A program made the position numbers and the translations under genes. A model generated the notes under the pieces. That model had not been told where the DNA came from. It did not search any database and saw nothing but the letters and a program-made list of their open reading frames with translations. Shown here one piece after another: positions 2,246 through 18,689 of a stretch of DNA of 64,000 bases (position 1 is the first letter of the stretch; each line of letters opens with the position of its first letter). The stretch is from Butyrivibrio sp. (GTDB lineage: Bacteria; Bacillota; Clostridia; Lachnospirales; Lachnospiraceae). The DNA lies in the NCBI GenBank assembly GCA_017470505.1, contig JAFUYO010000036.1, positions 1 to 64,000 on the forward strand. The letters are read 5' to 3'.

Positions 2246-3991
2246 TTATGATAGATTTGTCTCGTCGCGCTTACGGCCGGGCGTATTATAATGCTCCGCC
2301 TTATAAGCATCGACCTGTTTCTGGTAATGATCCATTTTCCCATGTACTGATGCGCGTTCCCGCTTTGGTATCTTCTGCACGCTCTGATGGTTCTGTCTTG
2401 CAAGCTGCTCTGACTGCATCTGCCGTGCGGCAGCCTGTGCCTGTTCTTCCGCCTGCTTTTTTTGTTGCTCTGCCTCTGAATCCTTACCGGACATTGCCGG
2501 CTCTTCACCGCCTCCGCTACTGCTTTCACCGGAGCTGCCGTTTGAATTAACACAGAATTCGATCGCCTTTTTGATGTCCTTTAGGATCTCAATTTCATCC
2601 TTAAGCGATTGAAGTTCTTCATCCTTCAAAGCCTCCGTTATCTCATCCTTAAGAGCAGCGATCTTCTCATTCCATAATTCCCTTGCAACATCCATACTTC
2701 CATCGACAAGATAAGTATCAAGTTCGCGCTCTGCCTTATGATACTGGTTCAGTTCTCTACGATGAATCTTCTGGAATTCAGCCTTTTTACTCTTGAAAAA
2801 TATCTTCTGCGACTCTTCAAATACAGGCTTATACTTCTCATAATTATCCAGAGACTTCAGGCGATCCTGATAGTCCTTTATCTTTACCCGCATATCCATG
2901 ATGTCTTTTTCCTTTTCGGACAGTGCCGTCTCTTTCTGTGCAATCATTTCTTCCAGTTCATCCGGTGTTGAGATTTTGTTCTCCATAAGATAGTTGCAAT
3001 CCTTATTCAGGCTCTTAAAGTTCTTCTCTTTCGCCTTTTGTGTCCCATGATCGTATGTAAGTGCAACTTTATCCCTATGCTCATAATACTTCATAACCAT
3101 ATCCGCAACGGTAGGCTCTTCAATCCGCCTGATCTCTTCGCGCATTTCCTTCATCCAGTCGGATATCTCACGGATGACGGATAAGATACGACGGATCGCA
3201 TCATTGGTTTTCTTAACCCAGCGGTTCCAGCTTCCTTTCTCTGTGACAATACCCCTTGCTTCCATCCGGCGGACAGCACTGCCTTCATGCACCTGCGGAA
3301 TCTCATCAATACCACGCTCGGCATTTGACCGATGATCTATACGACAGGACAGACCTTTCTCCTCAAATTTCGCATTGACCAGTTCCGCCCAGCGCTTACG
3401 CCAGTGTTCCAAAAGTGCGGGATCATTCCATCCGGTATTCGATACCGCCATGGTCTTATATTTCCCGTTTGCTTTACGGATCTTCTCACCGTCTTCATCA
3501 AGAACATACTCCTGATGTTGCTTATCTCCCCACTTGCCGCTCTCCAAAAACGGACGGATAGGAGAAGTGAGATGCCCGTGCGGATTCGGGATTCCGTACT
3601 TACCCTTATCAGGATCATGGATTGCCACATCAACGATCATCCCCCGTGATACCATCTCCTCACGGACAAATATATCCAGCAGCTCAATATTCTCTTCCAT
3701 GGTGAGCTCGTTCTGTAGTGCGATATCAAAACTATAAGCCAACTGGGCATCCTTACGGTTCTCGTTACGCTCAACCTCTGTCCAAAGTGTCTGACGGTCA
3801 TGGAGTCTCTCCGGCACATAGTCCGGCGCATAGATCATGGATGTGATCACTCCCTTTTTCCTGCTGTAGTCCTGAGTCTCTCCATAATATGCATCATACA
3901 ATTTTTCACCTGAACGATACGCCGCAGCAGCTATCGCCGTATGTCCCGCAGTACGCTTGATATGACCGAGGCTGAAATGATATAGTGCCAT
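2246..3991 (-). CDS. mobA: MobA/MobL family (MOBQ) relaxase
   Basis: The 581-residue protein has the MOBQ relaxase domain at about residues 1-230. Tyr25 in the AAAAYRSG segment matches the catalytic tyrosine position of the family. His138 and His140 in NPHGH, followed by SPIRP, form the metal-binding HUH-type motif. RIDHRSNAERGIDEIPQVHEG (about 215-235) is the usual domain-closing segment. The rest is coiled coil (about 330-480) and a Gln/Ala-rich tail with no primase or helicase domain visible. It nicks and carries the transferred strand of a mobilisable element. GGGGGAG precedes the ATG, and the DUF3847 gene ends 2 bases upstream. The likely oriT is at 4473-4525. Confidence 0.93.
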   Translation of the reverse strand: MALYHFSLGHIKRTAGHTAIAAAAYRSGEKLYDAYYGETQDYSRKKGVITSMIYAPDYVPERLHDRQTLWTEVERNENRKDAQLAYSFDIALQNELTMEENIELLDIFVREEMVSRGMIVDVAIHDPDKGKYGIPNPHGHLTSPIRPFLESGKWGDKQHQEYVLDEDGEKIRKANGKYKTMAVSNTGWNDPALLEHWRKRWAELVNAKFEEKGLSCRIDHRSNAERGIDEIPQVHEGSAVRRMEARGIVTEKGSWNRWVKKTNDAIRRILSVIREISDWMKEMREEIRRIEEPTVADMVMKYYEHRDKVALTYDHGTQKAKEKNFKSLNKDCNYLMENKISTPDELEEMIAQKETALSEKEKDIMDMRVKIKDYQDRLKSLDNYEKYKPVFEESQKIFFKSKKAEFQKIHRRELNQYHKAERELDTYLVDGSMDVARELWNEKIAALKDEITEALKDEELQSLKDEIEILKDIKKAIEFCVNSNGSSGESSSGGGEEPAMSGKDSEAEQQKKQAEEQAQAAARQMQSEQLARQNHQSVQKIPKRERASVHGKMDHYQKQVDAYKAEHYNTPGRKRDETNLS

Positions 3992-3993
3992 TT

Positions 3994-4326
3994 TTATGTA
4001 CTCCCCCTTTCCGAATGTACCGATGTGATCTGAGCCAGTATCTGATTCCTTACAACCGCATTCGCATTGAGGTTATCCATAAGCTGATAAAACTCCGGCT
4101 CTGTCATATCCTTTGTTTCCGGATAAAAATGCTCGATCACACCACCCTTGTTACATAATCTGTGAGTACGGGCAGCATACTCCGGATCATAGTCGGCGCG
4201 GTGACGGGACTTCTGATACTGTGCCCGCATCGTCAGTCTGGAGAGTCTGTGCCGTTCCTGATCCAGCTTCTCCTCTCCCTGCCGGTACTCCTGCTTTGCT
4301 TTTTCAATCTTTTCTGTTTCTTCCAT
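3994..4326 (-). CDS. DUF3847 family protein, first gene of the mobilisation operon
   Basis: The 110-residue protein has a coiled-coil N-terminus (about residues 1-40) and then RTHRLCNKGGVIEHFYPETKD (about 53-74), the hallmark of DUF3847. Members sit next to MobA/MobL relaxases in Firmicutes elements, where an auxiliary DNA-binding role resembling MobC is plausible but unproven. AAAGGAG lies 6-7 bases before the ATG. The 5' leader is about 310 bases and contains the predicted oriT. Confidence 0.8.
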   Translation of the reverse strand: MEETEKIEKAKQEYRQGEEKLDQERHRLSRLTMRAQYQKSRHRADYDPEYAARTHRLCNKGGVIEHFYPETKDMTEPEFYQLMDNLNANAVVRNQILAQITSVHSERGST

Positions 4327-4367
4327 TGATGAACTCCTTTCAAAAAATGAATGTTAACCTGGGGATA

Positions 4368-4416
4368 GCTGCCGCAGGCAGCGAAAGGGCGAAAGCCCTT
4401 TACCAGTGCGAAGCAC
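4368..4416. repeat. three consecutive small hairpins between oriT and the mob genes
   Basis: Three perfect stem-loops are packed into 49 bases: GCTGCC/GGCAGC (4368-4382), AAAGGGC/GCCCTTT with a GAAA loop (4384-4401), and GTGC/GCAC (4406-4416). They may be relaxosome binding sites or structure in the mob leader RNA. No T-run follows on either strand, so they are not terminators. Confidence 0.6.
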
Positions 4417-4472
4417 CGAATGCTTATCCATGCCAGGTCTCGGATAAGCTGCTCCATGCAATGGCGCGGTTC

Positions 4473-4525
4473 ATATTCACCCTCCGGGGTGAATATAGAA
4501 GTGCGCTATTACCTTACGGTAATAG
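4473..4525 (+). other. oriT: candidate origin of transfer (oriT) of the MOBQ element
   Basis: A perfect 10-base inverted repeat (ATATTCACCC 4473-4482, GGGTGAATAT 4487-4496, 4-base loop) is followed after 2 bases by AAGTGCGC (4499-4506). This is the layout of MOBQ oriTs, where a hairpin precedes a core like AAGTGCGCCC nicked after GTGCG, so the predicted nic is between 4505 and 4506. A second perfect hairpin, CTATTACC/GGTAATAG (4506-4525), starts at that point. The relaxase gene is about 480 bases away and would enter the recipient last, as is usual. Confidence 0.7.
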
Positions 4526-4645
4526 ATGGGCTCTGCTCGTTCGCCGATACCGCCTTTTCTGATCATGTGATGCATCTTCAACCCCTCCTTTTTATTTTCG
4601 TGCTACATCTCTTTTCAATACTCATTTCGTACTACGCGCATTTTT

Positions 4646-4674
4646 ATAATAGTACGCTTTTCGTAATATGTCAA
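4646..4674 (-). promoter_or_regulatory. promoter of the mobilisation operon
   Basis: On the minus strand a consensus TTGACA (4669-4674) and TATTAT (4646-4651) are exactly 17 bases apart. The resulting transcript would cross the oriT hairpins before the DUF3847 gene. Confidence 0.7.
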
Positions 4675-4708
4675 TACGATAATTTTATTGTTTATCTAAT
4701 TTTACGGA

Positions 4709-4737
4709 TTGCGTATCGATTCACATCATGATATACT
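4709..4737 (+). promoter_or_regulatory. promoter of the XRE regulator gene
   Basis: TTGCGT (4709-4714) and TATACT (4732-4737) are 17 bases apart. TG one base before the -10 makes an extended -10 element. The ATG at 4762 is 25 bases downstream. Confidence 0.65.
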
Positions 4738-4761
4738 GTTTACGAAAGGCAGGTATCGATC

Positions 4762-5226
4762 ATGGGATATGGACAGAATCTTAAGAATATACTTGATGAA
4801 AAGGGAATGACTGTAAAAGAACTCGCAAAAAAAGCCGGCATTGCACCGACTACTCTTTACTCTATTATTCAAAGGGATACCGCGATCAGATTTGATACTG
4901 CCCTTAAAATTTCAAACATCCTCAATATCCCGATCAACTCGATCTGCAAGGATAATCCATATGCACCGGGTGAAGCACTTCCAAAACTCCCGAAGGATAA
5001 AGAACGAATAATGATAAGTCTTCAAAAGAAAGCTTATTTTTCTGATCGCACATTGAAGATCATTGAAAAGTTTGATTATACGGATCTTCCCAAAGTAGAT
5101 CAGCTTATTGCGGATTTCTTTGTCTTAAATGATACCGCACGAAGCGATCTGTTTGAATACATTAAGATCATGAAAAAAAATCACTCAGACCATGAACGCA
5201 CGAGAATTCTGAGCAAAATCAAGTGA
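4762..5226 (+). CDS. XRE-family transcriptional regulator, divergent to the mob operon
   Basis: The 154-residue protein has an N-terminal Cro/C1 HTH at about residues 6-62. The stretch MTVKELAKKAGIAPTTLYSI and the RFDTALKISNILNIPINSI pattern are typical. The C-terminal part (about 80-154) is helical with no known domain and may dimerise. It is transcribed away from the mobilisation genes, and repeated TACGAAA boxes overlap both promoters, so control of the mob operon and of itself is likely. Its last 8 bases overlap the end of the convergent phosphatase gene. Confidence 0.85.
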   Translation: MGYGQNLKNILDEKGMTVKELAKKAGIAPTTLYSIIQRDTAIRFDTALKISNILNIPINSICKDNPYAPGEALPKLPKDKERIMISLQKKAYFSDRTLKIIEKFDYTDLPKVDQLIADFFVLNDTARSDLFEYIKIMKKNHSDHERTRILSKIK

Positions 5227-5959
5227 CATCATGATTTTTTAATACATGGGGATATGAATAATATTCATCCCCTGTATCCAAACATATAGCCGCAAGTCTG
5301 CCTCCCGACATATACGCACCACAGTCAATCGCTATGTGGTTATTTTTCCGATAAATATATCCGGGCTTAGGATTATTGTTAATACACTGCGTAGGTGTAT
5401 GACCGGTAATAACATATTTATCCAAATAGTAGCAGATATCATAGTCCGCCCTGTCCCAAACAAGTTCCTTAAGAGAATAATCCTCAATATCTTTTCCCGG
5501 ATAGAAACCTCCAAGACCTGCATGTACCAGCAAAAAGTCCCTTCCGGCAACTTCTATCTCCTCATAGACCAGAAAATCTCTCAGATATCCAATCACTTCT
5601 TTCTGATCTTCGAGGCTCAGCTCCCTAAACTCATCCATTGTAGTTTTACCACCATTATGCTCCACCCATACCAGAAATCCATCCAGCATTTCGGGATCCA
5701 ACTTTTTAAGGTTATCTGTCGTAACTTCCTGCATCAGAAATTTCAAGCTCTCCAGGGCCATAAGCTCATGATTTCCGACGAGACAGATCACATTTGGCAT
5801 CACCATAAGTTGTCTCAGTGTTTTTATAGGATGAGACCCTCTATCCAGGATATCGCCAAGGACATAAAGTGTATCCGATTCCTTCAGGGATATCTTCTCA
5901 ATCAGATCCATCAACATATCATATTCACCATGAATATCAGAAATCACATATGTTGCCAT
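5219..5959 (-). CDS. PP1-like metallophosphatase (calcineurin-type)
   Basis: The protein carries all metal-binding signatures of bacterial serine/threonine phosphatases: SDIHGE near the N-terminus, then GDILDRG (about residues 37-43), GNHE (about 65-68), and GHTP with a late histidine near the C-terminus. I place the start at the ATG at 5959, because GGAG lies 8 bases upstream; a longer reading from 5986 would add nine residues. Substrates may be phosphoproteins or dinucleotide polyphosphates. It follows the 352-residue gene by 16 bases, and its 3' end overlaps the XRE gene tail to tail. Confidence 0.85.
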   Translation of the reverse strand: MATYVISDIHGEYDMLMDLIEKISLKESDTLYVLGDILDRGSHPIKTLRQLMVMPNVICLVGNHELMALESLKFLMQEVTTDNLKKLDPEMLDGFLVWVEHNGGKTTMDEFRELSLEDQKEVIGYLRDFLVYEEIEVAGRDFLLVHAGLGGFYPGKDIEDYSLKELVWDRADYDICYYLDKYVITGHTPTQCINNNPKPGYIYRKNNHIAIDCGAYMSGGRLAAICLDTGDEYYSYPHVLKNHDVT

Positions 5960-5975
5960 ATCAATATCTCCATTA

Positions 5976-7034
5976 TTAGACTTCATTCAGAACATCGTGC
6001 TCTATGCCAAAAATAGCATCCTCTGCAGTCAATTCTCCCTTAAGTACCCCAAACACAAACGGAGCAAGCTTATCAAGCAATTTCGGCTGATATGCCGTAA
6101 TATAATCATTTGTTTCTAACTCCGCCGTCCTCCAAAACCTGTAATTCAACATAGTCGTAATAGATATATCATATCCGTCGTCTTCCGTCAGATACATACG
6201 CGGTGTGTAGAGTATCTGAGGATCGTACCATCTGTTGCCTCCATCGTTCAATTCCATAAAGACTCTCGCATTGATAAAATTTAATAGTCTGAGCAGTTCC
6301 TGTCTGTATTCACTTTTCCTGCATATATCCGCTCCCATTTGATTATAATACACTCGAGTTTCTGCAACTTTATCAAAAAACCATATACACCCTTCCGTAA
6401 ACCCTCCCGGTGCATTCTCACACATGAATACGAATGTAAATCTTGTAACTCCCAAATCAATATCTTTCTTATAAGGAACGGAGAAACTCCTTAAATACTT
6501 TTCCATCCAGTACGCTGCACGTTTCGAGTCATTACCAAATCTTTTCTTCGGATAAGAATGGGTAAGTTCTACTGGAAAATGATTTACAGGTAATTTTTCT
6601 ACAGTCAGATCAGTTCCCTTGCCGGAGTTATTCTCTTCATACTCTGCATCCTTAAGTTCATCTGCTTTCGGAATCCTGATATGATGCTTTTCAAGCAACT
6701 CCTCTACTGACAGAGTTTTCTTAAGCAGTGTATTCACTTCTATTTTTACCGTTGCCTTCTGCTTTCTACCATTTGCTATGTTTTCAAGAGAAAGATCTAT
6801 CCACTCATTCTTACTGCAGGGGAGCTGAATGCCCATACTATCCGGTGCTTCATAAAGCATACCGTCATCACCGATGGCAGTCCCGGCAAAATAAAATAAC
6901 TCCTCCCTATCTCGAGGAACCTCACACCTGTCATAAAACACATAATGCTCATCCAGTCCTTCAAACAGCTTATACAATTCCCAGATTTCATTGCTTGTGA
7001 TTTCCTTTGGTCTACTATCATCATTAATCCTCAT
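5976..7034 (-). CDS. uncharacterised 352-residue protein
   Basis: I do not recognise the family. The protein is soluble and acidic, with no signal peptide or membrane segment. A low-complexity linker (about residues 125-150) separates an N-terminal part from a Trp/Tyr-rich C-terminal domain (RFTFVFMCENAPGGF, WFFDKVAETRVYYNQ). The ATG overlaps the last 11 bases of the upstream gene, with AAGGAGG placed correctly inside that gene, so translation is probably coupled. The downstream neighbour is the PP1-like phosphatase, and the three genes look like one operon. Confidence 0.6.
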   Translation of the reverse strand: MRINDDSRPKEITSNEIWELYKLFEGLDEHYVFYDRCEVPRDREELFYFAGTAIGDDGMLYEAPDSMGIQLPCSKNEWIDLSLENIANGRKQKATVKIEVNTLLKKTLSVEELLEKHHIRIPKADELKDAEYEENNSGKGTDLTVEKLPVNHFPVELTHSYPKKRFGNDSKRAAYWMEKYLRSFSVPYKKDIDLGVTRFTFVFMCENAPGGFTEGCIWFFDKVAETRVYYNQMGADICRKSEYRQELLRLLNFINARVFMELNDGGNRWYDPQILYTPRMYLTEDDGYDISITTMLNYRFWRTAELETNDYITAYQPKLLDKLAPFVFGVLKGELTAEDAIFGIEHDVLNEV

Positions 7035-7866
7035 AACCTGTTACCTCCTTTTCCATAGCTTTCATACGGGTCTCCAACAGATTTATCATGTATGTTAATG
7101 CCTCTCTTATTTCAGTTTCTTTTCTCAGGCTTTTCCCTTTTCCTGGATGAAGATCCTTTATAAGCGGGATCACATGATCCTGATCTATGATTCCGTCACT
7201 GAATCCAGCCTCCAAGCGTTCACGTTTTACCCATTTTACAGGGTCAATCTGCAGAGTATTTTTCTCATGGCTCAATGCAAGCAAAGAATTTTCCATCCTG
7301 TTCCTTACATCTGCCCGGTCAAAATATTTTCCAAACCAGTTTTTATCAAACAGATGATAAAGCATGGGAGGTACTTCATCATATAACCTAACCCTTCCTA
7401 TGCCATCTACCTCACAGTTGTATCTTGCCCTGTTCATTGCTCTGTCGGGAAGAAGGATGTAATTGCATCTAAGCTCCGCAAGTTCAAGGAATCGGTCAAG
7501 TAAGAGCACTAGTTCGTGCTTTGGAGGAAGGTAAGCATCCCTGTCCTCTGCAAGAAGCCTTAGATAATAATTGGCATCATTACTCAGTTCTTTACAGAAT
7601 TTAATGCCATACTCTCTGTTAAGGCAATTTGCAACCCAACTGATCGGCGTCCAGGCACTCATAAGTGTATCTGCCCGAAGGTCTCCATTAAAATATAAGC
7701 AATCAAGATCATTCTGTTTCCTCCACTCATCGAATCGGGCTTTCCACTCTTCTGTACCATCCCACTTTGGTTTTGTCTCTCTGCCCTTCATCCAGTAAAG
7801 GCAGAAATTCTTAAGATGGTTGTCACTATAATCATTTCCAAGGTACTCTTTCATTATGTTTTTCAT
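7024..7866 (-). CDS. uncharacterised 280-residue protein
   Basis: The family is not recognised. The protein is soluble, rich in Trp and charged residues (EEWKARFDEWRKQ, SAWTPISWVANCLNREYG), with RFLELAELRCNYILLPDRA in the middle. I choose the ATG at 7866 because AAGGAG lies 9 bases upstream; a longer reading from 7926 has no Shine-Dalgarno. It is preceded by repeat copy A (7936-7979) and overlaps the next gene by 11 bases. Confidence 0.6.
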   Translation of the reverse strand: MKNIMKEYLGNDYSDNHLKNFCLYWMKGRETKPKWDGTEEWKARFDEWRKQNDLDCLYFNGDLRADTLMSAWTPISWVANCLNREYGIKFCKELSNDANYYLRLLAEDRDAYLPPKHELVLLLDRFLELAELRCNYILLPDRAMNRARYNCEVDGIGRVRLYDEVPPMLYHLFDKNWFGKYFDRADVRNRMENSLLALSHEKNTLQIDPVKWVKRERLEAGFSDGIIDQDHVIPLIKDLHPGKGKSLRKETEIREALTYMINLLETRMKAMEKEVTGYED

Positions 7867-7935
7867 AACTGTTTTCTCCTTTTCTTTATGGTTGTATTTG
7901 TCCGCAACTAAAGAGGACTGCACCATCGCAATCCG

Positions 7936-7979
7936 TTTTCACAATTATTATGGAATCTGATATCTTCAAAATCTTGAAG
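7936..7979 (-). repeat. 44-bp intergenic repeat, copy A
   Basis: This aligns without gaps to 8880-8923 and 9469-9512. The conserved core on the minus strand is TCAA, then ATTTTGA, then TCCATA, then GTG. It begins 5 bases after the stop codon of the 278-residue gene. Confidence 0.7.
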
Positions 7980-7984
7980 TCTCA

Positions 7985-8821
7985 CTATTTTCTATAACAG
8001 GTAAGCGACCATGAAAAGCCGAAATCATACCATAATCCGTAATTATTAAATATATTCGCAAATTCCGATTGCAGATATCCGGTAATCTCCGGAATTGATA
8101 TGATCCCCGTTTCATCCAAAGCACATTCCCTGATAAATTCAGTTTTTGCATCTGCAACCATTTGCTCCCAAACCGGTTTTACATCCTCCATACTAAGAGA
8201 TTCTGATATTTCCATATCAGCAAGGTATTCTTCATAGGTTCCGTATCTTTGATAGGCGGGCGTAAGTTTTTCTTCTCCATTCTCATACGCTTCTCCATTT
8301 ACAAAATCCTGATATTCTTCCCATGTATCGAAAACCAGTGGATCCCACGCTGTATAGTCAGGGTTGTCAAATCTATCCTCCAGAATCTGTGCCAGAAACT
8401 CTTCAGGTGATGCCAGCTCATATTTCTCATACATATAATCCTCAAGGATTCCCGTATGAGCAAAAATGTAATCCCATGCATCAGGAGAAATATCCGATTT
8501 CTTTACACCTTCATAAGTATCATGACGAAGCACCATGTAAAGCGGTCCCTCATATACCATATCAAGGATATGCTCAGGATTTGAAAAGCTCTTCCATACC
8601 GGGTGACGATTTCCATAACTGTCTGTTTCATCCGTAATACCGGTTGTATAATCTTCCGGATTCTCACAAACAGTTATCTTAATATTCGGCAAACCGCAAT
8701 ATAGATCTCCCTTATTATTACAGCCCGGGAAATACGCCTTGCCGTCCGCCAGAATAGTCACATCCTGCCACAGCCCCCACTTCTGCAGAAATCTTATCAG
8801 CTCGATTACCATTTTTTCCAT
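7985..8821 (-). CDS. uncharacterised 278-residue acidic protein
   Basis: The family is not recognised. The protein is strongly acidic and Tyr/Trp-rich (WEEYQDFVNGEAYENGEE, YGTYEEYLADMEI), with no membrane segment and no catalytic motif that I can name. The start is supported by GGAGGTGC directly upstream of the ATG. It is flanked by repeat copies B (upstream) and A (downstream), so it looks like a self-contained unit. Confidence 0.6.
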   Translation of the reverse strand: MEKMVIELIRFLQKWGLWQDVTILADGKAYFPGCNNKGDLYCGLPNIKITVCENPEDYTTGITDETDSYGNRHPVWKSFSNPEHILDMVYEGPLYMVLRHDTYEGVKKSDISPDAWDYIFAHTGILEDYMYEKYELASPEEFLAQILEDRFDNPDYTAWDPLVFDTWEEYQDFVNGEAYENGEEKLTPAYQRYGTYEEYLADMEISESLSMEDVKPVWEQMVADAKTEFIRECALDETGIISIPEITGYLQSEFANIFNNYGLWYDFGFSWSLTCYRK

Positions 8822-8879
8822 GCTGCACCTCCGATCAATTTTTATGCATCAAAAAAGAACTGCCTGCTATAGACAATTC

Positions 8880-8923
8880 TTTTCACGAATAATATGGAAT
8901 TTCCGGAGTTCAAAATATTGAAG
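8880..8923 (-). repeat. 44-bp intergenic repeat, copy B
   Basis: The repeat starts 10 bases after the HAD gene's stop codon. On the minus strand it shares TCAATATTTTGA with copy C and TCCATA and GTGAAAA with copy A. Confidence 0.7.
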
Positions 8924-8933
8924 ATGGCGATTT

Positions 8934-9440
8934 TTACAAAAGGTCTTTCTCCAACAACTGCAATCTTGTATCTTCGGAACTGATGTGGAGGATTCCGGTT
9001 CCTCCGTAGTTAACCCAGTCATCTATATTGGATTTAAGATCATCGATCAGAATGCTGTCCTTTCCTGTGCAGAAATTTTTCTTTTCTTCGCGATATACAA
9101 TATTTACCTTCAGTTCCGGTGTCAATAAGCGGTGCGCCCATGCTATCTTATCTTCTCCGGCAGTCGTTATCCCTCTTTTGGGTTTAGGAATCCCCGTCAG
9201 GATCTCGCATTTATCTCCGTATCTTTCGTATAGTTCTCTGAAAAGTTCTACTGCCCCCGGCATAGGCTCCAATCTGTCATAAAAATGTGGTACCCCCCGG
9301 ACCCTTTCCCACATCAGGTCGTCTTCTTCCTTAGAGCGATGTTCGCCTTGCTTAAGCGGCTTCAAACCGCAAAGTTCTGTTACGCCACCATCAAAATCTG
9401 CAAGAACGCCATCCATATCGAAGTATATTTTCCTTGCCAT
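8934..9440 (-). CDS. HAD-superfamily 5'(3')-nucleotidase-like protein
   Basis: The 168-residue protein has the HAD nucleophile motif FDMDGVLADF (Asp8 nucleophile, Asp10 acid/base). A Thr in ILTGIPKPKRG (about residue 81) matches motif II, and ILIDDLKSNI (about 131-140) matches the motif IV Asp pair. The length and the GAVELFRELYERYG segment fit the deoxyribonucleotidase (NT5C-like) group, so dephosphorylation of a nucleotide is the likely reaction. GAGGAGGTGC precedes the ATG. The gene is bracketed by repeat copies C and B. Confidence 0.8.
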   Translation of the reverse strand: MARKIYFDMDGVLADFDGGVTELCGLKPLKQGEHRSKEEDDLMWERVRGVPHFYDRLEPMPGAVELFRELYERYGDKCEILTGIPKPKRGITTAGEDKIAWAHRLLTPELKVNIVYREEKKNFCTGKDSILIDDLKSNIDDWVNYGGTGILHISSEDTRLQLLEKDLL

Positions 9441-9468
9441 AGTGCACCTCCTCGAATAATAATTTTCG

Positions 9469-9512
9469 GTTACACTTATATTATGGAGTTATTCATCGTC
9501 AAAATATTGAGT
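9469..9512 (-). repeat. 44-bp intergenic repeat, copy C
   Basis: This copy begins immediately after the TGA (9513-9515) of the 153-residue gene. TTGACG and TATAAG separated by 16 bases could serve as a promoter for the HAD gene. Confidence 0.65.
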
Positions 9513-9974
9513 TCAGCTTTCTAACAGACCAAATTTCTCTATTAAAAGTCTTTCAACTTTATATGCCTCATCTTTATCCTTTGTTTTTATCACGATTATG
9601 TGTGGATGATACCACCTCTTTTTATTATCATACAGCCACTTCTTTGCCTCTCCCGGTTTTGGATAATTCATAAATCTAACATCACTTCCATATGCATTTA
9701 CTTTCATTGACCCGGACTTACCGGCAACGATTGCAAACAAAGAATCGGCATTATAGTTATCTCTCTCTGATTCAAAAAATTTTATATACGCAAAGTATTC
9801 TATTCCCTTATCACATAAAGACTCTTCAAATTGTCTTTTTTTCCCTCTTTTATATCTTTCCTGGTTCTGTTCAAGGAAAGTTCCAACCATCTCATATGGT
9901 AATCCATCAACCTCAAGTTGAGTCTTTACTGCTTCTAAACTGTATTTAGGATTCCAACCATTATCTAAATGCAT
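9513..9974 (-). CDS. uncharacterised 153-residue protein, possibly GIY-YIG-like
   Basis: The family assignment is tentative. The segment YFAYIKFF followed by LFAIVAGKSGS (about residues 60-92) and the end KDEAYKVERLLIEKFGLLES resemble the strands and last helix of small GIY-YIG-type nuclease domains. I cannot identify the full catalytic set. The ATG overlaps the end of the sigma/WYL gene by 14 bases, so the two are co-transcribed. AAAAGG lies somewhat far upstream of the start. Confidence 0.5.
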   Translation of the reverse strand: MHLDNGWNPKYSLEAVKTQLEVDGLPYEMVGTFLEQNQERYKRGKKRQFEESLCDKGIEYFAYIKFFESERDNYNADSLFAIVAGKSGSMKVNAYGSDVRFMNYPKPGEAKKWLYDNKKRWYHPHIIVIKTKDKDEAYKVERLLIEKFGLLES

Positions 9975-11757
9975 ATTTTTGAGTCATCCTTTTCATTTCA
10001 ACCATAATTAGTGTTCTGATTTCCTCATCCATAATCTCCACCCTGCTTCCATACTGCATTGCCCAGTGTACGATCATTGTCGGGGAAGTCCGCACTTTTA
10101 CAATATCATGCTGTGTTTCTCTGCCCTTATCATCCGTTCCGGTGACTTCATCCACCTTTTCATAATGATTTCCGAACCAGTCGTGGATAATGGTATAATC
10201 CGTATTTCTTATCTTGATCCTGATATCCTGCGGCTCATCGTAAGCCATATTTAGATGCTCTGACATATATTTTTCCGGATCCCAGGTCGCATTAAAGATC
10301 GGAAGTCCTGCGAAATCCGTGATTTCGACAGGAACTACCCTGCCTTCCTCGTCCAGTATCAGTTCCATATCCGACATCAGATCAACCCGGTAATGCCACA
10401 CACGACGATCACCTTTTTTCAGTCCAATACAATAGTAATTGTCGTGATAAACCACCAGATGATACGGACTCAGCTCATGCACATATTCATCTGTCGGTAC
10501 CAGTTCGTGTTCCGCATTATAGCGGTTAAACTTAAATCTCACTTGCCCCAAATTATTTACCGCATATTGCAATGTCTTCAGATTCTCCGCAAAACCGGCT
10601 TTTTCATCAGTTGTCCTCCCGGTAAATCTCCCATGTACCGCTTTGGGGCTGAACTTAAGGCCTTTGCCATCCCAGTATGGAGTCGCGTAATATTTGCCGG
10701 CCGTACCAATGATCTTGCCTATCAATCTCTCCTTCTCCTCCATGGACAACATGTCCGTAAAACTTACAAGTTGTATCAGACGGTCTGTTTCCTCATAAGT
10801 AAAAGGATGTACATAAGAAAGGCCATTAAGAACCGGAGCCGAGCCGGACTCGACCTTCTGCGAGCTACTCTTATTCTGTTTAATGTTTTTATTCAACTTA
10901 TCTTCCGTATAGCCGTCGTACTTGATCCTGTAATCGCTGTCATTATCATCGCTGTACTCCCCCGGATTAAGCTCCAGCAGAATCTCAGCGATCGTTTTAT
11001 TGAATGTATTATCCGATTCAACAGAAGTACTGTTACTATATTTTCCAATTCGGTACAGACGAAGCAGGTACTTTAAGTCTTCCTTAGATACACTGTGCTT
11101 CTCATCCGTAGTCTGCTTTAATATTTCCAATATCTGGAGAGTGCTTCTTTCATTGCTGTATCCTCCGAGATCTGATATGCCGCCTTCTAAGTACAACTGC
11201 TCAAGTGCATCTTTATTGGCTTTTTCATCCTTAAGAAGCCCTGCTATCTCTGACATTCTGCTAAGATTTCCATCCTCAGACGTGTCTGTTTCAGTCTCAT
11301 CACTATGTTTCTCCCGCATGAGAGCATAAGACAGCACATTATCCGGTATTCCCCCGTCTTCATCTATTGAAATACGTGAAATAACACTGCTTTTAGTCTC
11401 GACCGATTTCCTCTTTTCAGTTTTCGGTCTCTCTGTAAGTCCCAGCGGATTCAGTTGAAGATCCAGTTCTTTTGATATCTCTCCATTTATATAATAGGTC
11501 GCATATGTCAGAAGTTTTCCATTTTCAGGGTCATAGTTCTTTATGGCAGATACAAAACCCTGCCATCCGGCTATATAAAGATCTTCTTCCAGTTCCATCC
11601 GAAAGGTATCTGACAAATCAAGTCTTCTTAACCTCTTCCAGCAGCACTCATGTATATAGCGGTCAAAGTTTCGGCAAATATCACCCCAAGCGTCGTTATT
11701 GCCGGCTTTGATATCACTTATCAGTACATCGATTTCCTGATCCGTTAAATAATTCAT
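9961..11757 (-). CDS. sigma-70 region 2 - winged HTH - WYL domain fusion regulator
   Basis: This 598-residue protein has an unusual order of domains. Residues about 20-105 resemble sigma-70 region 2: LEEDLYIAGWQGFVSAIKNY followed by DPENGKLLTYATYYINGEI. A polar linker follows (about 110-200). Then comes LQILEILKQTTDEKHSVS (about 206-223), the start of the winged HTH that precedes WYL domains. The WYL core is YHLVVYHDNYYCIGLKKGDR (about 432-451), and a WCX-like C-terminal domain ends the protein. No region 4 is seen. WYL domains sense ligands such as nucleic acids or nucleotides in other regulators. It starts 18 bases after rlmD and overlaps the next gene, and may regulate the cargo genes. Confidence 0.75.
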   Translation of the reverse strand: MNYLTDQEIDVLISDIKAGNNDAWGDICRNFDRYIHECCWKRLRRLDLSDTFRMELEEDLYIAGWQGFVSAIKNYDPENGKLLTYATYYINGEISKELDLQLNPLGLTERPKTEKRKSVETKSSVISRISIDEDGGIPDNVLSYALMREKHSDETETDTSEDGNLSRMSEIAGLLKDEKANKDALEQLYLEGGISDLGGYSNERSTLQILEILKQTTDEKHSVSKEDLKYLLRLYRIGKYSNSTSVESDNTFNKTIAEILLELNPGEYSDDNDSDYRIKYDGYTEDKLNKNIKQNKSSSQKVESGSAPVLNGLSYVHPFTYEETDRLIQLVSFTDMLSMEEKERLIGKIIGTAGKYYATPYWDGKGLKFSPKAVHGRFTGRTTDEKAGFAENLKTLQYAVNNLGQVRFKFNRYNAEHELVPTDEYVHELSPYHLVVYHDNYYCIGLKKGDRRVWHYRVDLMSDMELILDEEGRVVPVEITDFAGLPIFNATWDPEKYMSEHLNMAYDEPQDIRIKIRNTDYTIIHDWFGNHYEKVDEVTGTDDKGRETQHDIVKVRTSPTMIVHWAMQYGSRVEIMDEEIRTLIMVEMKRMTQKYAFR

Positions 11758-11775
11758 TTTAATTCTTCCTCATAT

Positions 11776-13452
11776 TCATATCATCTGAAAGTGTCTCAGG
11801 GCATCCTCAATCGCCTTAACCTTCTTCTCCGGACACCCCGGCTGCTTACTGTCCGGTGACTTCGGCTTATTATAATTCTCCCGCTCAATGATCCCGTGCT
11901 TCTGCTTAACCTGCGCGATATTGAGATTAGTCACCCGATAACCATATTTTGCTTTTATCCAATCCCGTATGGCGTTATATGTTGCACCCTTCTTAAAACC
12001 ATCCGTGTCCATATCCTCCAGACTGAATTCAACCCGCAATTTCTGTGACTTGACATCTCCCTTGGAAAGCAAACATACAGTCTCCACATGACTCGTCCAC
12101 GGGAACTGGTCGACGGCAACGGCTCTTGTCATGCAGTAGCCGCTCTCCTGCAGGACTTCGAGGTCCCTGGCGAGGGATGTGGGCTTGCAGGACACATAGA
12201 TCATGTACCGGACGCCGTAGCCGATTATCTTCTGGAGAGCCTTGGGATTGATGCCGTCGCGAGGGGGATCGAGGATGATGATGTCTGGCTTTTCTTCGAT
12301 CTCGTCAAGGACCTTCAGGACATCACCCGCGATGAACTCGCAGTTATCGAGGTGATTGAGCCTGGCGTTTTCTCTGGCTGCCCTCACTGCCTCCTCCACA
12401 ATCTCGACACCTATCACTTTGGTGGCAACAGGTGCCAAAAGCTGCGAGATCGTCCCCGTACCTGAATACAGATCGTAGATGACCCCGTCCTTCCTTATCT
12501 TCTTCTGATCGTAGAGACTCTTTATATAGCCGCGAACAGTCTGATAGAGGACCTCTGCGCTCAGCGAGTTGGTCTGGAAAAAAGAAAATGGTGTGATCCT
12601 GAATTTGAGTCCCAGAAGGTACTCATAGAAATAGTCCTGTCCATACAGAACTTCGGTTCCCTCATCGATGACCGCATCCGCAAGGGAGTCGTTTCTGGTG
12701 TGGAGTATACCTGTAATCTTACCCGTGAGATTAAGTGACAGGAGCATTTTGGTGTAGATTGAGAGATCGTGTTCCTCCTGAGTAGTCGTGACAAGGTCGA
12801 TCAGGATCTCTCCCGTCCTGACAGCCTTTCGCACAAGCAGGTGCCGCAGGTAACCTTTCTGCTTCATTCTGTGGTAAAAAGAAATATCTCCGCGCTCGTA
12901 CATCGGCGCAAAAAAATCCACAGTAGCGGATAGTATCGACCTGTAATCATCGTCGACTATACGGCATCCACTTACTGTGACTATATCGTAAAAGCTGCCT
13001 CTCTTGTGCATTCCAAGACAGAGGGAGCCTCCCATCACCTCGTCTCCGAAGGTGAATTCCATTTTATTTCTGTATGCAAACTTAACCGGGCTGGTCTTGA
13101 TGCCCTCCCAGGTAAATCTGCAGGACTGCCTCTCGATGGCAGGCGCAAGAAGCGTTCTGACCTGCTGCTCTTTGAGTCCCAGTTCCTTTACATAGGGCAT
13201 GGTGAGATAGCTGCATCCACCGCACTTTCCGAAGTGAATGCATGGACTCTCCACGGCATCTGCCGGCTCCTCGATGACCTCCAAAAGCCGTCCCTCCGCC
13301 CTGTCCTTGCGGACCTTCTGAATCTGTACAGATACCTTCTGATCGGGGAGGACGCCCTTGACGACGACCTTCCCCTCAGGAGTCTGTACAATTCCCTTAT
13401 TGGGGAATTCAACTTTCTTTACGATTCCCTCGATAATATCTTTCTTTTTCAC
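11776..13452 (-). CDS. rlmD: TrmA/RlmD-family 23S rRNA (uracil-5-)-methyltransferase with C-terminal extension
   Basis: The 558-residue enzyme has an N-terminal TRAM domain (about 1-62), a Cys cluster with CIHFGKCGGC for a 4Fe-4S centre (about 71-80), the SAM-binding DLYSGTGTISQ, and the catalytic-site motifs LDPPRDG and VSCKPTSLARD. It should methylate uridine in 23S rRNA; RlmD and RlmCD specificities cannot be told apart here. About 85 residues after the normal end form an extra domain (YNAIRDWIKAKYGYRV, then IIERENYNKPKSPDSKQPG). The start is GTG with a weak Shine-Dalgarno, 6 bases after the small membrane-protein gene. Confidence 0.9.
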   Translation of the reverse strand: MKKKDIIEGIVKKVEFPNKGIVQTPEGKVVVKGVLPDQKVSVQIQKVRKDRAEGRLLEVIEEPADAVESPCIHFGKCGGCSYLTMPYVKELGLKEQQVRTLLAPAIERQSCRFTWEGIKTSPVKFAYRNKMEFTFGDEVMGGSLCLGMHKRGSFYDIVTVSGCRIVDDDYRSILSATVDFFAPMYERGDISFYHRMKQKGYLRHLLVRKAVRTGEILIDLVTTTQEEHDLSIYTKMLLSLNLTGKITGILHTRNDSLADAVIDEGTEVLYGQDYFYEYLLGLKFRITPFSFFQTNSLSAEVLYQTVRGYIKSLYDQKKIRKDGVIYDLYSGTGTISQLLAPVATKVIGVEIVEEAVRAARENARLNHLDNCEFIAGDVLKVLDEIEEKPDIIILDPPRDGINPKALQKIIGYGVRYMIYVSCKPTSLARDLEVLQESGYCMTRAVAVDQFPWTSHVETVCLLSKGDVKSQKLRVEFSLEDMDTDGFKKGATYNAIRDWIKAKYGYRVTNLNIAQVKQKHGIIERENYNKPKSPDSKQPGCPEKKVKAIEDALRHFQMI

Positions 13453-13458
13453 AATGTA

Positions 13459-13719
13459 TCAGCTCTCTTTAATGAAATCTTCATCCTCGAAGTCGTCCTC
13501 GAAATCATCGAAGTCGTCATCATAATAATCGTCCTCAAAGGCAGGAGTCATGTAACGGTAAACGAGAAAAGAGATACATGCTACAGCTGATATAGACCCA
13601 AGCACAGCCAGAATCCAAAGGATCACGTTGCCAGGTTTCTTGGCATTAGCTGCCTCTCTCTTGTCAAGGAGATCATTGATTCGTGTCATCTCGATAAGAT
13701 CTTCAATTTTTGATTCCAT
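13459..13719 (-). CDS. small single-pass membrane protein with acidic tail
   Basis: The 86-residue protein has a polar N-terminus, one transmembrane helix (about residues 31-54, VILWILAVLGSISAVACISF) and a C-terminal tail made almost wholly of D, E, F and Y. The function is unknown. It lies 6 bases upstream of rlmD in the same direction and about 50 bases after pcrA. An outward or inward acidic tail could bind cations or partner proteins, which is speculation. Confidence 0.65.
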   Translation of the reverse strand: MESKIEDLIEMTRINDLLDKREAANAKKPGNVILWILAVLGSISAVACISFLVYRYMTPAFEDDYYDDDFDDFEDDFEDEDFIKES

Positions 13720-13770
13720 CTGTTAGCCCTCCATTTTTGAATTGATTAGTTCATTATATCATAAATTACT

Positions 13771-16266
13771 CTATTCTTTCTTAAGTTTGGCAATCGTGGC
13801 ATACATTATTTTCTGCCCGTACTGTTCAAATCTTACAGTCACAACGTAGTCCTTCGGCCCCTGCTCAAGAGCTGTGACAACTCCCGCTCCCCACTTTACA
13901 TGGGATACCCGGTCGCCCACTGTATAATCAGGCTTCTCTGTTTTCATTGGCATACCCTTGGAGAGCCCTTTAAGTGATCCCTTTGTATGCGTCGCCCCGA
14001 CACCTGCGATGTAAGGCTTGTTGGGAACCGCCCTCTTCTCGGGTTTCTTTGGTTTGGAAGAAGCCTTTATACGGTATGTCCCGGCAAGAGAGGATCTGTC
14101 ACTGCTGCCGGACACCCCGGCCTGCGCTCCTCTTTCTGTGCTGCGGTTACGGTTTAAGCCCTTTGCGTAGTTTGCCCTGATGCCGGAGTAGCCACTGTCG
14201 CTGTCGTCATCGTCGTCATCATAACCTGATGAGCGGTCTTTGTAAGTATCCTCGACTCCCTCGTATTCATCGAGGCTCTCGCCCCCGTCAAAAAGAAATG
14301 ACGCCGAAGTTAAGGTCTCAGCCGTATCTAAAAGCTCATCCGGGATCTCTTTGGCAAATCTGCTGAGCATGTTGTACCGGGTCTCTCCCCTTACCATCCT
14401 GCGCTTTGCCGCTGTCAGGGTCAGATTTCTCTTGGCTCTCGTTATGCCGACATAAGCCAGTCTCCTCTCCTCCTCAACAGCCTCGGGGTCAGTGTCCTCG
14501 TTCTGGGTGGTCATATAGCTTGGGAAAACTCCCTCCTCCATTCCTGTCAGATACACATTTTCAAACTCAAGTCCCTTCGCTGAGTGAAGGGTCATGAGCA
14601 ACACTTTCTCGTTGTCGTCGCCTATCCTGTCTATGTCCGCTACAAGAGCCACCTCCTCAAGGAATCCCGTGAGAGTAGGCTCCTGTGTCTCGTCGTCCTC
14701 CTCGTAGGCAGCCGCCTTGGATATGAGCTCGTCGACGTTCTGCACTCTGTCGTTGTCACCGCTATCGTCGTCCTCATCAATAGTCTTCAGGTACTGCAGG
14801 TATCCGATCACATCGATGACATCCTCAAGCAGCTCCTCAAGCGACATCTCTTTTGCCTTGGTCCGAAAGGCCCTTATCATCGTGACAAAATCCTTAAGCT
14901 TCGAAGTGCTCCTGCCTACGGCAACGATCTGATCCGCCTCGCATAGCGCGTCAAAAAAGCTTATCTGTCTCTCATTTGCATAGTTCTGGACGTGCTCTAT
15001 GGTTGTAGCGCCGATACCTCGCTTGGGAACGTTTATGATCCTCTTTACCGCGATGTCGTCAGAACCTGAATCTATAGTTTTGAGGTAGGCCAGCAGGTCT
15101 TTGATCTCGCGCCTTGAGTAGAAGTTCGTGCCACCGACGATATCGTACGGGATCCCCTCGTAGACAAAACGCTCTTCAAGCACACGCGACTGCGCGTTTG
15201 TGCGATAGAGTATCGCGGTGTCGCTGTAGCTGAGCTTCCCCTGCCTGTGGAGACGCCCTATCTCGGATGCGACAAACTCTGCCTCATCAAGAGCCGTGTC
15301 GAACTGCTTAAGGCGAACCTTCCCGCCGTCCCTGATATCCGTCCAGAGCGCCTTGTCCTTGCGGCCGTAATTATTCCTTATGACAGCGTTTGCGGCATCG
15401 AGGATCTGCTGCGTCGAGCGGTAGTTCTGCTCGAGCTTTATGACCGTGCAGTTCTTGTAGACATTCTCAAAATCAAGGATATTCCTGATATTTGCGCCCC
15501 TGAACCTGTATATGCTCTGGTCGTCATCTCCGACCACACACAGGTTTTTGTATCTGTCCGCGAGCAGCCTTATAAACTCAAACTGAGCGTTGTTGGTGTC
15601 CTGGTACTCATCCACCATGATGTACTTAAATCTCTCCTGATAGTACTCAAGCACATCGCTGTTTTTCTGAAAGAGCTCCACGCACTTCATGATTAGATCG
15701 TCGAAATCGAAGGCATTGTTCTTTTTGAGCGCGCTCTGATACTCCGTGTAGGCCTTGGATATCCTGCTCTTTATGTAGTCATCGGCTGCTGCCCGGGCAT
15801 ACTCATCAGGCCCCACCAGATTGTCCTTGCACCTTGAAATCGTACCCTGTATCTGGCGGAGCTTTAGAGTGGTTGTCTCAAGCTGGAATCTCTTGCATAT
15901 CTCTTTTAAAAGAGTCTTGGAATCGTCGGCGTCATATATCGTGAAGTTGGAGGTGTATCCAATCCTGTCCGCATACCTTCTGAGTATTCTTGTGCAGCTT
16001 GAATGGAAGGTAGAAACCCAGATGCTCTCCGCTCCGAAGCCCACAATCTTGTCAACCCTGTCCCTCATCTCGCCCGCAGCCTTGTTGGTAAAGGTGATGG
16101 CCATGATGTTCCAGGGATTAACCGAGCACTTATCGATCAGGTACGCGACCCTGTGAGTCAGAACCCTCGTCTTTCCGGAACCGGCACCTGCCAGTATCAG
16201 GACCGGCCCGTCTGTCTGAAACACAGCCTGCTTCTGCTGTGCATTTAAAGTATCGTAAATTCCCAT
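13771..16266 (-). CDS. pcrA: UvrD/PcrA-type superfamily 1 DNA helicase
   Basis: The 831-residue 3'-5' helicase has all SF1A motifs: Q-motif LNAQQKQAV, Walker A GAGSGKT (about 27-33), DEYQDTNNAQ (motif II), GDDDQSIYRFRGA (motif III), QNYRST (motif IV), LMTLHSAKGLEFENVY (motif V) and VGITRAKRNLTL (motif VI). The last 50 residues (YTVGDRVSHVKWGAGVV) form the PcrA C-terminal Tudor-like domain that contacts RNA polymerase. A Ser/Gly/Asp-rich linker sits before it. It acts in repair, replication restart and plasmid rolling-circle replication. It overlaps the DUF1836 gene by one base. Confidence 0.97.
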   Translation of the reverse strand: MGIYDTLNAQQKQAVFQTDGPVLILAGAGSGKTRVLTHRVAYLIDKCSVNPWNIMAITFTNKAAGEMRDRVDKIVGFGAESIWVSTFHSSCTRILRRYADRIGYTSNFTIYDADDSKTLLKEICKRFQLETTTLKLRQIQGTISRCKDNLVGPDEYARAAADDYIKSRISKAYTEYQSALKKNNAFDFDDLIMKCVELFQKNSDVLEYYQERFKYIMVDEYQDTNNAQFEFIRLLADRYKNLCVVGDDDQSIYRFRGANIRNILDFENVYKNCTVIKLEQNYRSTQQILDAANAVIRNNYGRKDKALWTDIRDGGKVRLKQFDTALDEAEFVASEIGRLHRQGKLSYSDTAILYRTNAQSRVLEERFVYEGIPYDIVGGTNFYSRREIKDLLAYLKTIDSGSDDIAVKRIINVPKRGIGATTIEHVQNYANERQISFFDALCEADQIVAVGRSTSKLKDFVTMIRAFRTKAKEMSLEELLEDVIDVIGYLQYLKTIDEDDDSGDNDRVQNVDELISKAAAYEEDDETQEPTLTGFLEEVALVADIDRIGDDNEKVLLMTLHSAKGLEFENVYLTGMEEGVFPSYMTTQNEDTDPEAVEEERRLAYVGITRAKRNLTLTAAKRRMVRGETRYNMLSRFAKEIPDELLDTAETLTSASFLFDGGESLDEYEGVEDTYKDRSSGYDDDDDDSDSGYSGIRANYAKGLNRNRSTERGAQAGVSGSSDRSSLAGTYRIKASSKPKKPEKRAVPNKPYIAGVGATHTKGSLKGLSKGMPMKTEKPDYTVGDRVSHVKWGAGVVTALEQGPKDYVVTVRFEQYGQKIMYATIAKLKKE

Positions 16267-16937
16267 TATATATTTCCCTTGGTCTTTTTCTTCTTTTCCC
16301 TGTCTGCCTTTTCCTTTCTCTTATCCGCATCCGTCTTCCTGCTCTCGGTTATGTTGTCGAGAATTTTCTCTATCAGAAGTTTTTTTACATAGACGTCGTA
16401 GGACAAAAGAGATATGAACGAAAAAACCTGCAGCTTCTTCCTCTCCTCATCATCTATATTCGCATCGAGGAATGTCTCCATCGACCTGTTGTACTTATCT
16501 TTCAGATCCTCGATACAGGGACCTAAAGCCTCAGTCTGAAGAGTGCACGCACTCTCATAGATGTCGCTTAGGTTAAATTCATCATCGCTTATCTTAAAGC
16601 GCTCCTTCAGCGGCCCTAAAAGCGTCTGAATGTCATTTATCGACAGGATATTCTTGTAGTAATAGATGAAAATAAGCAGGATCAGATGGTCCTTGCTGTA
16701 CTTCTTGCGCACCGGCGGAGGCAGAAGGTCATTCTTGGCATAGTTGTTGATCATGGTCTTGGTCAGGATCTTGTCCGACTCGGGATAGCGGGTGGACTTC
16801 TTGAGCCTCTCGCCCATGAATGACGTGAGCTGATCCATATACAGATCTATGTTGGGAAGCTCATCGAGCGATATGTTATCAATCCTGCCAAGTGAAGCTA
16901 TTATGCTGTTTATAAGGTCATCGTTGTCGATAGTCAT
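16266..16937 (-). CDS. DUF1836 domain protein
   Basis: The 223-residue protein has the DUF1836 core at about residues 50-160 (ILTKTMINNYAKNDLLPPPVRKKYSKDHL), a pattern similar to MerR-type HTH segments; the family may be DNA-binding. A highly charged Lys-rich tail (about 200-223) follows. Its role is unknown. Overlap by one base with pcrA and 3 bases from recN make an apparent recN-DUF1836-pcrA operon. Confidence 0.8.
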   Translation of the reverse strand: MTIDNDDLINSIIASLGRIDNISLDELPNIDLYMDQLTSFMGERLKKSTRYPESDKILTKTMINNYAKNDLLPPPVRKKYSKDHLILLIFIYYYKNILSINDIQTLLGPLKERFKISDDEFNLSDIYESACTLQTEALGPCIEDLKDKYNRSMETFLDANIDDEERKKLQVFSFISLLSYDVYVKKLLIEKILDNITESRKTDADKRKEKADREKKKKTKGNI

Positions 16938-16940
16938 ATC

Positions 16941-18632
16941 TTAACCCTTCTTGGAGGCGAGCGCCTTTTTCCGCATCTCCAGCGCATTTGAAAGAGCTGC
17001 CTCTGAAACCTCGTTGTCTCCCAAGAGCCTTGCAAGTTCCCTTATGGACGCATCCTCATCAAGAGCATGTATGTCCGTGACGGTCCGCCCTTCGACAAGC
17101 CCCTTCTCGATCATGAAATGAGTATCTGCCATCGCTGCAATCTGAGGCAGATGTGTGATGCATATGATCTGATGAGACGCCGCTAATTCTCCGAGCTTTT
17201 CGGAGACCTTCCAGGCGGTCTTTCCGCTGATACCGGTGTCTATCTCATCAAAGATAAGGGTGCTGATGTCATCCTTGTCGGCAACTACTGTCTTTAGCGC
17301 AAGCATGATACGGGAGAGCTCACCGCCGCTGGCTATCTGATTAAGAGGTCGCAGCTCCTCTCCCGGATTTGTGGAGATCATAAACTCCACATCGTCATAT
17401 CCGCTCTCACTTATCTTTTCTTCGTCCTCCCTGACGGCTATCTCAAACCTTACATCCAAAAAGTTCAGATCTACCAGGGCTTTCTTCAGCTTTTCGGCCA
17501 GCTCCAAAGCGCCGCGCTTTCTTATCCCGGATATCTTTTGGCAGGTCAAAAGAGCTTCTTTCCTTGTCCTGTCGTACTCGGATTTTAGTTTGCTCCTGTA
17601 GGCCGCGAGGTCATTCAAGGCATTCAGTCTCTCCTCTTTTTCTGAAAGAGCCTTACCGATAAGCTCGATGCTCTGACCGTACTTGTCCTTTAAATGGTTT
17701 ATCAGATTGAGCCTCTCCTCAACCTCGTTAAACTCCTGAGCGTCAAACTCAAGTCCCGACATATATCCGCTCAGAGCGTGATTAAAATCAGATAAGAGAT
17801 TGTCGATGTCGGAAATCTGTGCATGAAGATTTTCAAGCTCCGGGTCATAGGATAAAACCGATGACAGCTCTCTCACAGCGCGTCCTGTCATATCGGATGC
17901 GGACTCATTTCCTCCGCCTCCTGATAAGAGCTGCTCTGCCACGCCCACAGCCTCAGAGATTTTGCGGCTGTTGACCATTTTGCGGTAGCGCCCCTCAAGC
18001 TCCTCATCCTCTCCGCAAGTAACTGCAGCCGCTGTGATCTCGTCAGTCTCAAACTGCAAAAGTTCCTGCTCCCTCTTTCTCGAGTTCTCATCCATGTCAG
18101 TATCTTCGAGCTCTTTCTCAATACTCTTTAGCCTCCCGTAGGAGGTTCCCAGCACGTCAAAAAGGCCGCCCAGATCATCCATGCAGTAGCCGTCGAGTAT
18201 CTCCTTATGCTTTTTCTTGTGAAGAAGCTCCTGATGGTCATTCTGACCATGAATGTTGATAAGGATATTTGAGATATCCTTGAGCTGTCTTGCTGTCACA
18301 TTTTCTCCCGAGACCTTGGAGATGCTCCTTTTTGGCGATATCTTTCTCTGCAGAAGGAGCGTTCCGTCCTCCTCCAAGATAATATCCATTTCTTCAAGGA
18401 GTTCTTTCTGCAAAGGACTCAGTTGCCCAAAAACAAGCTCTACGAGAGCATATTCCTCGCCTGTCCTGATCAGCGAGGCATCGGCTTTTCCTCCCAGGGC
18501 AAGATTCACACTGCCGATGACGACGGACTTACCTGCACCCGTCTCACCGGTGAGAATGTTGAGTCCGTCAGTGAACTCAATCTCCTGCTCTTTTATAAGA
18601 GCAAGATTTTTTACATGCAAACTATATAACAT
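16941..18632 (-). CDS. recN: DNA repair protein RecN
   Basis: The 563-residue SMC-like ATPase has Walker A GETGAGKSVVIGS (about 30-42), a long central coiled coil, the signature ASGGELSRIMLALK and Walker B LIFDEIDTGISG. RecN tethers broken DNA ends during double-strand break repair. The ATG lies about 60 bases after argR. In many Clostridia recN is followed by spoIVB and spo0A, but here DUF1836 and pcrA follow. Confidence 0.97.
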   Translation of the reverse strand: MLYSLHVKNLALIKEQEIEFTDGLNILTGETGAGKSVVIGSVNLALGGKADASLIRTGEEYALVELVFGQLSPLQKELLEEMDIILEEDGTLLLQRKISPKRSISKVSGENVTARQLKDISNILINIHGQNDHQELLHKKKHKEILDGYCMDDLGGLFDVLGTSYGRLKSIEKELEDTDMDENSRKREQELLQFETDEITAAAVTCGEDEELEGRYRKMVNSRKISEAVGVAEQLLSGGGGNESASDMTGRAVRELSSVLSYDPELENLHAQISDIDNLLSDFNHALSGYMSGLEFDAQEFNEVEERLNLINHLKDKYGQSIELIGKALSEKEERLNALNDLAAYRSKLKSEYDRTRKEALLTCQKISGIRKRGALELAEKLKKALVDLNFLDVRFEIAVREDEEKISESGYDDVEFMISTNPGEELRPLNQIASGGELSRIMLALKTVVADKDDISTLIFDEIDTGISGKTAWKVSEKLGELAASHQIICITHLPQIAAMADTHFMIEKGLVEGRTVTDIHALDEDASIRELARLLGDNEVSEAALSNALEMRKKALASKKG

Positions 18633-18689
18633 ACTTTCCTCTCACTTTTTTGTCAAAATGAGAACCCCACCAAAACAATTTCCTTTATC

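Follow-up and report, generated by a model that had tools for sequence, protein, structure and literature searches.

A sigma-70 region 2-WYL fusion protein from Butyrivibrio sp. and the promoter-like element that accompanies it: a candidate one-component sigma factor

In the genome of Butyrivibrio sp., we have identified a protein in which a sigma-70 region 2 is fused to a HTH-WYL-WCX-like part, and which is accompanied by a promoter-like element lying ahead of the genes that follow it. Judging from sequence and predicted fold, this protein is likely a one-component sigma factor that would drive the genes directly behind its own. The window, that is the whole 64-kb stretch of DNA analysed, covers the opening 64 kb of contig 14; the genome measures 2.75 Mb at 84% completeness. 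An RlmD-like methyltransferase gene lies 18 nt ahead of the sigma-WYL gene, and downstream of it lie five genes, of which the last three overlap each other, plus a small gene at 9513-9974. The features of the locus are:

9961-11757, minus strand: sigma-WYL gene, 598 aa (open reading frame; homologues found, 36 aligned)
11452-11757, minus strand: sigma-70 region 2, residues 1-102 (profile and fold matches)
11164-11451, minus strand: linker, residues 103-198 (pLDDT below 50 at 104-141 and 147-160; much shorter in many homologues)
9964-11163, minus strand: HTH, WYL and WCX-like region, PafBC/DriD-like, residues 199-598 (fold matches; a stand-alone gene in split homologues)
10363-10587, minus strand: WYL domain PF13280, residues 391-465 (Pfam E 5.8e-7)
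9513-9974, minus strand: small gene that begins within the 3' end of the sigma-WYL gene (open reading frame; no Pfam match)
9470-9514, minus strand: element copy 1, before 8934-9440 (PWM score 41.1; pattern match 9479-9511)
8934-9440, minus strand: NT5C/HAD nucleotidase-like gene after copy 1 (Pfam NT5C E 1.1e-7)
8881-8925, minus strand: element copy 2, before 7985-8821 (PWM score 46.6; pattern match 8890-8922)
8855-8881, minus strand: terminator-like hairpin right after copy 2 (-10.9 kcal/mol, followed by a T-run)
7985-8821, minus strand: gene of no assigned family after copy 2 (no Pfam match; cluster common to 12 loci)
7937-7981, minus strand: element copy 3, before 7024-7926 (PWM score 45.2; pattern match 7946-7978)
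7915-7934, minus strand: terminator-like hairpin right after copy 3
7024-7926, minus strand, likelier start 7866: gene of no assigned family after copy 3 (no convincing Pfam match; cluster common to 19 loci)
5976-7034, minus strand: gene of no assigned family overlapping the gene before it (open reading frame, Pfam scan)
5219-5986, minus strand: calcineurin-like phosphoesterase gene overlapping the gene before it (Pfam Metallophos E 1.7e-16)

Small genes starting within the end of the sigma-WYL gene recur at L030:9791, L034:9793, L036:9649, L050:9652, L059:1920 and L066:9172, with differing families; their products could be co-translated partners or sensors. Elsewhere in the window, a perfect 27-nt inverted repeat is found at 792-818 and 1072-1098, its arms 253 nt apart, and a 581-aa open reading frame resembling a MobA/MobL-type relaxase was noticed by eye at 2246-3991 on the minus strand, close to the base-1 edge of the contig. 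Rfam gave no match in window positions 1-20000.

Domain make-up and split relatives

A preliminary description of this DNA had read the N-terminus of the protein as sigma region 2, and the range of residues 20-105 does match this region by profile and by fold. The Pfam match is over the cut-off in L045 and L122 and under it in the window protein. Among the 36 aligned homologues, the core-binding segment keeps its L and its G in 36/36 each, the melting segment keeps T in 35/36 and Y in 33/36, and the residues facing sigma70 W433 and Q437 are unconserved. A sequence search against solved structures returned a sole match, which was discarded (E 0.57). By the sequence or fold of its region 2 the protein belongs to the sigma-70 family, and core binding and transcription start are predicted from the kept motif residues.

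The second half had been described as a WYL regulator, in agreement with its PF13280 match and with a fold search using residues 199-598, where PafBC on RNA polymerase came at the top (E 4.1e-10) and DriD second; CapW and BrxR were also among the fold matches. The HTH-WYL-WCX layout of the PafBC/DriD class is seen in the fold alignments over 199-598 and 201-598 together with a WYL match above cut-off, while the WCX profile matches only below cut-off, and in relatives. Region 4, said earlier to be missing, is found by Pfam in none of six fused proteins (the window protein, L122, L059, L034, L045 and L121). Because ECF (group 4) factors need region 2 and region 4, the fused proteins were not classed among them.

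Six loci are of a split type, with the sigma and WYL parts in neighbouring genes. Region 4 scored 1.3e-6 in the split sigma gene of L016 (above cut-off), 3.8e-5 in L061, 8e-4 in the fragment of L060, 0.0033 in L063 and 0.012 in L065; Pfam finds no region 4 in those of L068 and L002. TIGR02937, a profile ending in region 4, was matched to its last positions above cut-off in L063, L068 and L061 and below it in L002. On the basis of these Pfam scores and the TIGR02937 coverage, region 4 is kept in the split forms and absent from the fused ones. In L060, the sigma gene (6026-6406) comprises the C-terminal 99 residues only, region 2 being lost, and a carB-like gene lies directly ahead. Since this locus has the element and a WYL gene without region 2, region 2 is maybe dispensable in places, or L060 has decayed.

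In a tree of the WYL part, rooted at its midpoint, the fused L122 groups with the split L068 and L002 (100/99) and the other 37 fused rows stand apart (100/97). The placement of L122 therefore implies at least two changes between the split and fused states. One reading of these sequences is that two fusions took place, with region 4 lost each time; fission is the alternative reading of the same tree.

The element and its association with the protein

The element is composed of a 20-bp palindrome, ATCTTCAAAATTTTGAAGAT, followed by CTCCATAATATA-GTGTAA. Its consensus, derived from 37 distinct sites, is ATCTTCAAAATTTTGAAGAT, then CTCCATAATATA..TG.AA, with a 9-nt gap counted from the 14-bp core; this gap was 9 nt at 35/35 sites when 3-20 nt were permitted. 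The CATAAT box shares 5/6 letters with the sigma-A box. With CATAAT placed at -12 to -7, the palindrome centre would lie 19.5 bp upstream of -12, which is the position of the middle of a -35 box. The window genome holds three copies in total, each ahead of a gene right behind the sigma-WYL gene, and a general repeat finder run on the window did not show the element.

Loci were scored with a PWM trained without each locus's own and similar sites, at a cut-off score of 14; the null maximum was 9.3 over three order-1 shuffles of 0.8 Mb, and for L120 one shuffle scored 18.4, over the cut-off. Scores above 14 were obtained at 32/39 fused, 4/6 split and 0/28 WYL-only loci, 25 of the last being just 2-4 kb long and many of the compared loci being close relatives of each other. 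The repeats are thus present near homologues, a point on which the preliminary description had also staked its reading; the observation made there is confirmed as real, and its interpretation is supported. The fused loci below 14 are L039, L042 and L053, which stop at or within the gene, L035, which by eye has a CCTCCATAATTAGGTGTAAC box ahead of a KptA gene, L047 and L048, both scoring 10.3, and L067, in whose 17.6 kb no element was found. The split loci below 14 are L061 (9.3; box visible by eye) and L124 (115 nt of downstream sequence). Left out before counting were L016 (split, contig ends), the fragments L058, L071 and L072, the duplicates L079-L081, L125, L126, L118 (WYL fragment, element 49.8) and L123 (element at contig edge). 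Of these, L071 bears an element scoring 23.9, and at L118:4745-5086 a short WYL fragment adjoins an exact element copy.

Whole genomes were searched as well. Among 194 relative genomes, the window genome (G000) has 3 matches, all local, and three others have one 3-mismatch match each, the reversed control matching in 2 genomes. Among 397 family genomes, the pattern matches in 4/5 carriers of the full-length protein, and the fifth, G509, has diverged PWM copies. With up to 3 mismatches, 17 of the 397 match, namely the four full-length carriers, G482 (exact, beside a WYL fragment), G404 (1 mismatch, contig edge) and 11 with 2-3 mismatches; the reversed control pattern matches in 8 genomes. In G000, G487 and G288, every match is local. 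Among the genomes searched, the protein occurs mostly in Lachnospiraceae, with some Oscillospiraceae and others, and in 3/391 class genomes. Relatives of the protein were not found in phages, nor in viral contigs either by protein or by exact element pattern, and the plasmid search gave two weak partial matches.

The palindrome itself varies with the protein. The main group has TTCAA..TTGAA, L059, L064 and L066 have TGCAA..TTGCA, L047 and L048 have TACAA, and the clade of L060, L063, L065, L068 and L122 has AACAT centres. With type labels assigned by hand from the located elements, palindrome type requires 13 changes on the protein tree versus a mean of 22.2 after shuffling, and as few were reached in 0/200 shuffles. 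The earlier proposal that protein and repeat form one regulatory system is strongly supported by the co-occurrence, the fixed 9-nt gap, the placement before start codons and the tree-following palindrome. Since the element stands ahead of neighbour genes here and beside most relatives, protein and element together look like a gene switch complete in itself.

Neighbouring genes and their leaders

Fifty-nine elements were located in 40 loci; 58 of them run in the direction of the sigma-WYL gene. A start codon on the same strand follows within 25-160 nt for 51 of them, versus 7.2% for random positions. One of the 59, at L034 position 6001, lies within a gene and is a false match. In the loci examined, the sigma-WYL gene has no element upstream of itself, with the exception of the split L068, where one lies 252 nt ahead of the sigma gene.

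Same-strand runs of up to 8 genes were collected downstream, and 107 of the 137 genes were searched with Pfam. They include 19 calcineurin-like phosphoesterases, 6 NT5C, 5 GNAT, 2 HAD_SAK_2 (RNA repair; "Swiss Army Knife" HAD), 1 KptA, 2 AAA_33 kinases and 2 HD proteins, and many have no Pfam match. The gene at L035:10468-11004 encodes a KptA/Tpt1 RNA 2'-phosphotransferase (Pfam E 2.5e-45) behind a CATAAT-type box. Because the families are phosphoesterases, nucleotidases, KptA and HAD_SAK, RNA or nucleotide damage and repair is hinted at, and these gene products may serve RNA or nucleotide repair. The suggestion of a link to defence gained no support; the neighbours resemble phosphoesterases, nucleotidases and RNA-end enzymes, and PADLOC run on the 107 gave few, scattered and weak matches, mostly to AAA ATPases.

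Terminator-like hairpins lie a few bases past the likely start site at 15/58 elements (a raw count), two window copies included. A read-through model was scored on 33 leaders with a start codon 25-60 nt downstream of the element. In the read-through RNA of 11/33, no more than 10% of the ribosome site is unpaired, the box region pairing with it; comparing own start with read-through, the unpaired ribosome site goes up by more than 0.2 in 16/33 and down by more than 0.2 in 3/33. The window copy scored has no such effect (0.71 vs 0.77). Read-through pairing, with 11/33 leaders and none at the scored window copy, is therefore a feature of a subset only. Some target-leader hairpins may silence read-through transcripts while those from the element's own promoter stay active.

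Proposed mechanism and alternatives

We propose that the HTH-WYL-WCX part, similar to PafBC and DriD and probably dimeric, would bind the palindrome, whose centre would lie some 31-34 bp ahead of the likely start site, where region 4 reads the -35 box; the winged HTH would hence stand in for region 4. The N-terminal region 2 would bind core RNA polymerase and read CATAAT 9 nt further downstream. A ligand of the WYL domain, a nucleic acid or nucleotide, would probably gate this activity, so that the sigma-WYL protein would then transcribe the adjoining genes with their RNA- or nucleotide-end processing likeness. The fullest version, a new sigma architecture in which a WYL dimer replaces region 4 and a single chain does the sensing, the upstream DNA reading and the promoter opening, fused from a split pair probably at least twice, sensing broken nucleic acid to switch on repair genes, with leader hairpins, has in our view slightly less than an even chance of holding in all its parts.

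Perhaps the WYL part is instead an ordinary activator recruiting the sigma-A holoenzyme, region 2 serving just for docking or regulation while CATAAT is read by sigma-A. PafBC, the closest fold, works with sigma-A, the box is close to that of sigma-A (5/6), and L060 keeps the element without region 2. Yet two region 2 domains are not known to share one core polymerase site, the core-binding and melting motifs of region 2 are kept, a promoter search at the three copies in the window gave none of sigma-70 type, and the element is seen at 0/28 loci of WYL-only relatives (25 of these being 2-4 kb). We consider this explanation unlikely. The protein might also be a repressor covering the palindrome and CATAAT of sigma-A promoters, released by ligand in the manner of CapW and BrxR; these two WYL proteins of CBASS/BREX systems are repressors and appear in the fold list. 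However, the fold is nearer to the activators PafBC and DriD, the element offers sigma-A no -35 box, and a kept region 2 would serve no clear purpose, which makes repression improbable. More improbable still is that region 2 acts as a PhyR-like decoy titrating an anti-sigma factor or the core enzyme. PhyR is a known sigma mimic, but according to passages of PMC8103513 it is degenerate at the core and promoter contacts, segments that are largely kept in sigma-WYL. A decoy would also leave the dedicated promoter-like element that accompanies the protein to be explained.

Returning to the candidate sigma factor, it can be set beside several established systems. The late sigma factor gp55 of phage T4 reads a -10-like box only and needs separate coactivators; it is sigma-like in the same way and lacks a sensor domain. 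DriD, a WYL homodimer activated by ssDNA, shares the single-chain HTH-WYL-WCX layout but is without a sigma domain. PafBC, the HTH-WYL-WCX activator acting by sigma adaptation and the best fold for residues 199-598, is alike in that a WYL protein takes over upstream promoter reading; passages of PMC11804915 describe it as having no sigma domain and as partnering housekeeping SigA at a -26 motif, whereas sigma-WYL has region 2 covalently joined and a palindromic upstream site. In the SigO system, as presented in part of PMC8103513, region 2 and upstream reading are split over unlike units, but SigO provides region 4, in place of which fused sigma-WYL has the WYL protein. ECF sigma factors with a fused regulatory domain exist (passages of PMC8999054), yet these have region 2 and region 4, the latter absent from fused sigma-WYL. 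A search over partial texts in an open collection of 5.4 million papers found no sigma-WYL fusion, and none is named in passages of PMC4012209, PMC11804915, PMC6789036, PMC8999054 and PMC8103513.

If the proposed mechanism is true, a sensor could take the place of the half of a sigma factor that reads upstream DNA, giving a ligand-responsive sigma factor without need of an anti-sigma partner, and sigma-WYL would link PafBC-type sigma adaptation with true sigma factors. Because the promoter layout is shared by split and fused forms, the two would constitute a natural experiment on the purpose of region 4. Moreover, the element offers a handle for finding regulon genes of unknown function.
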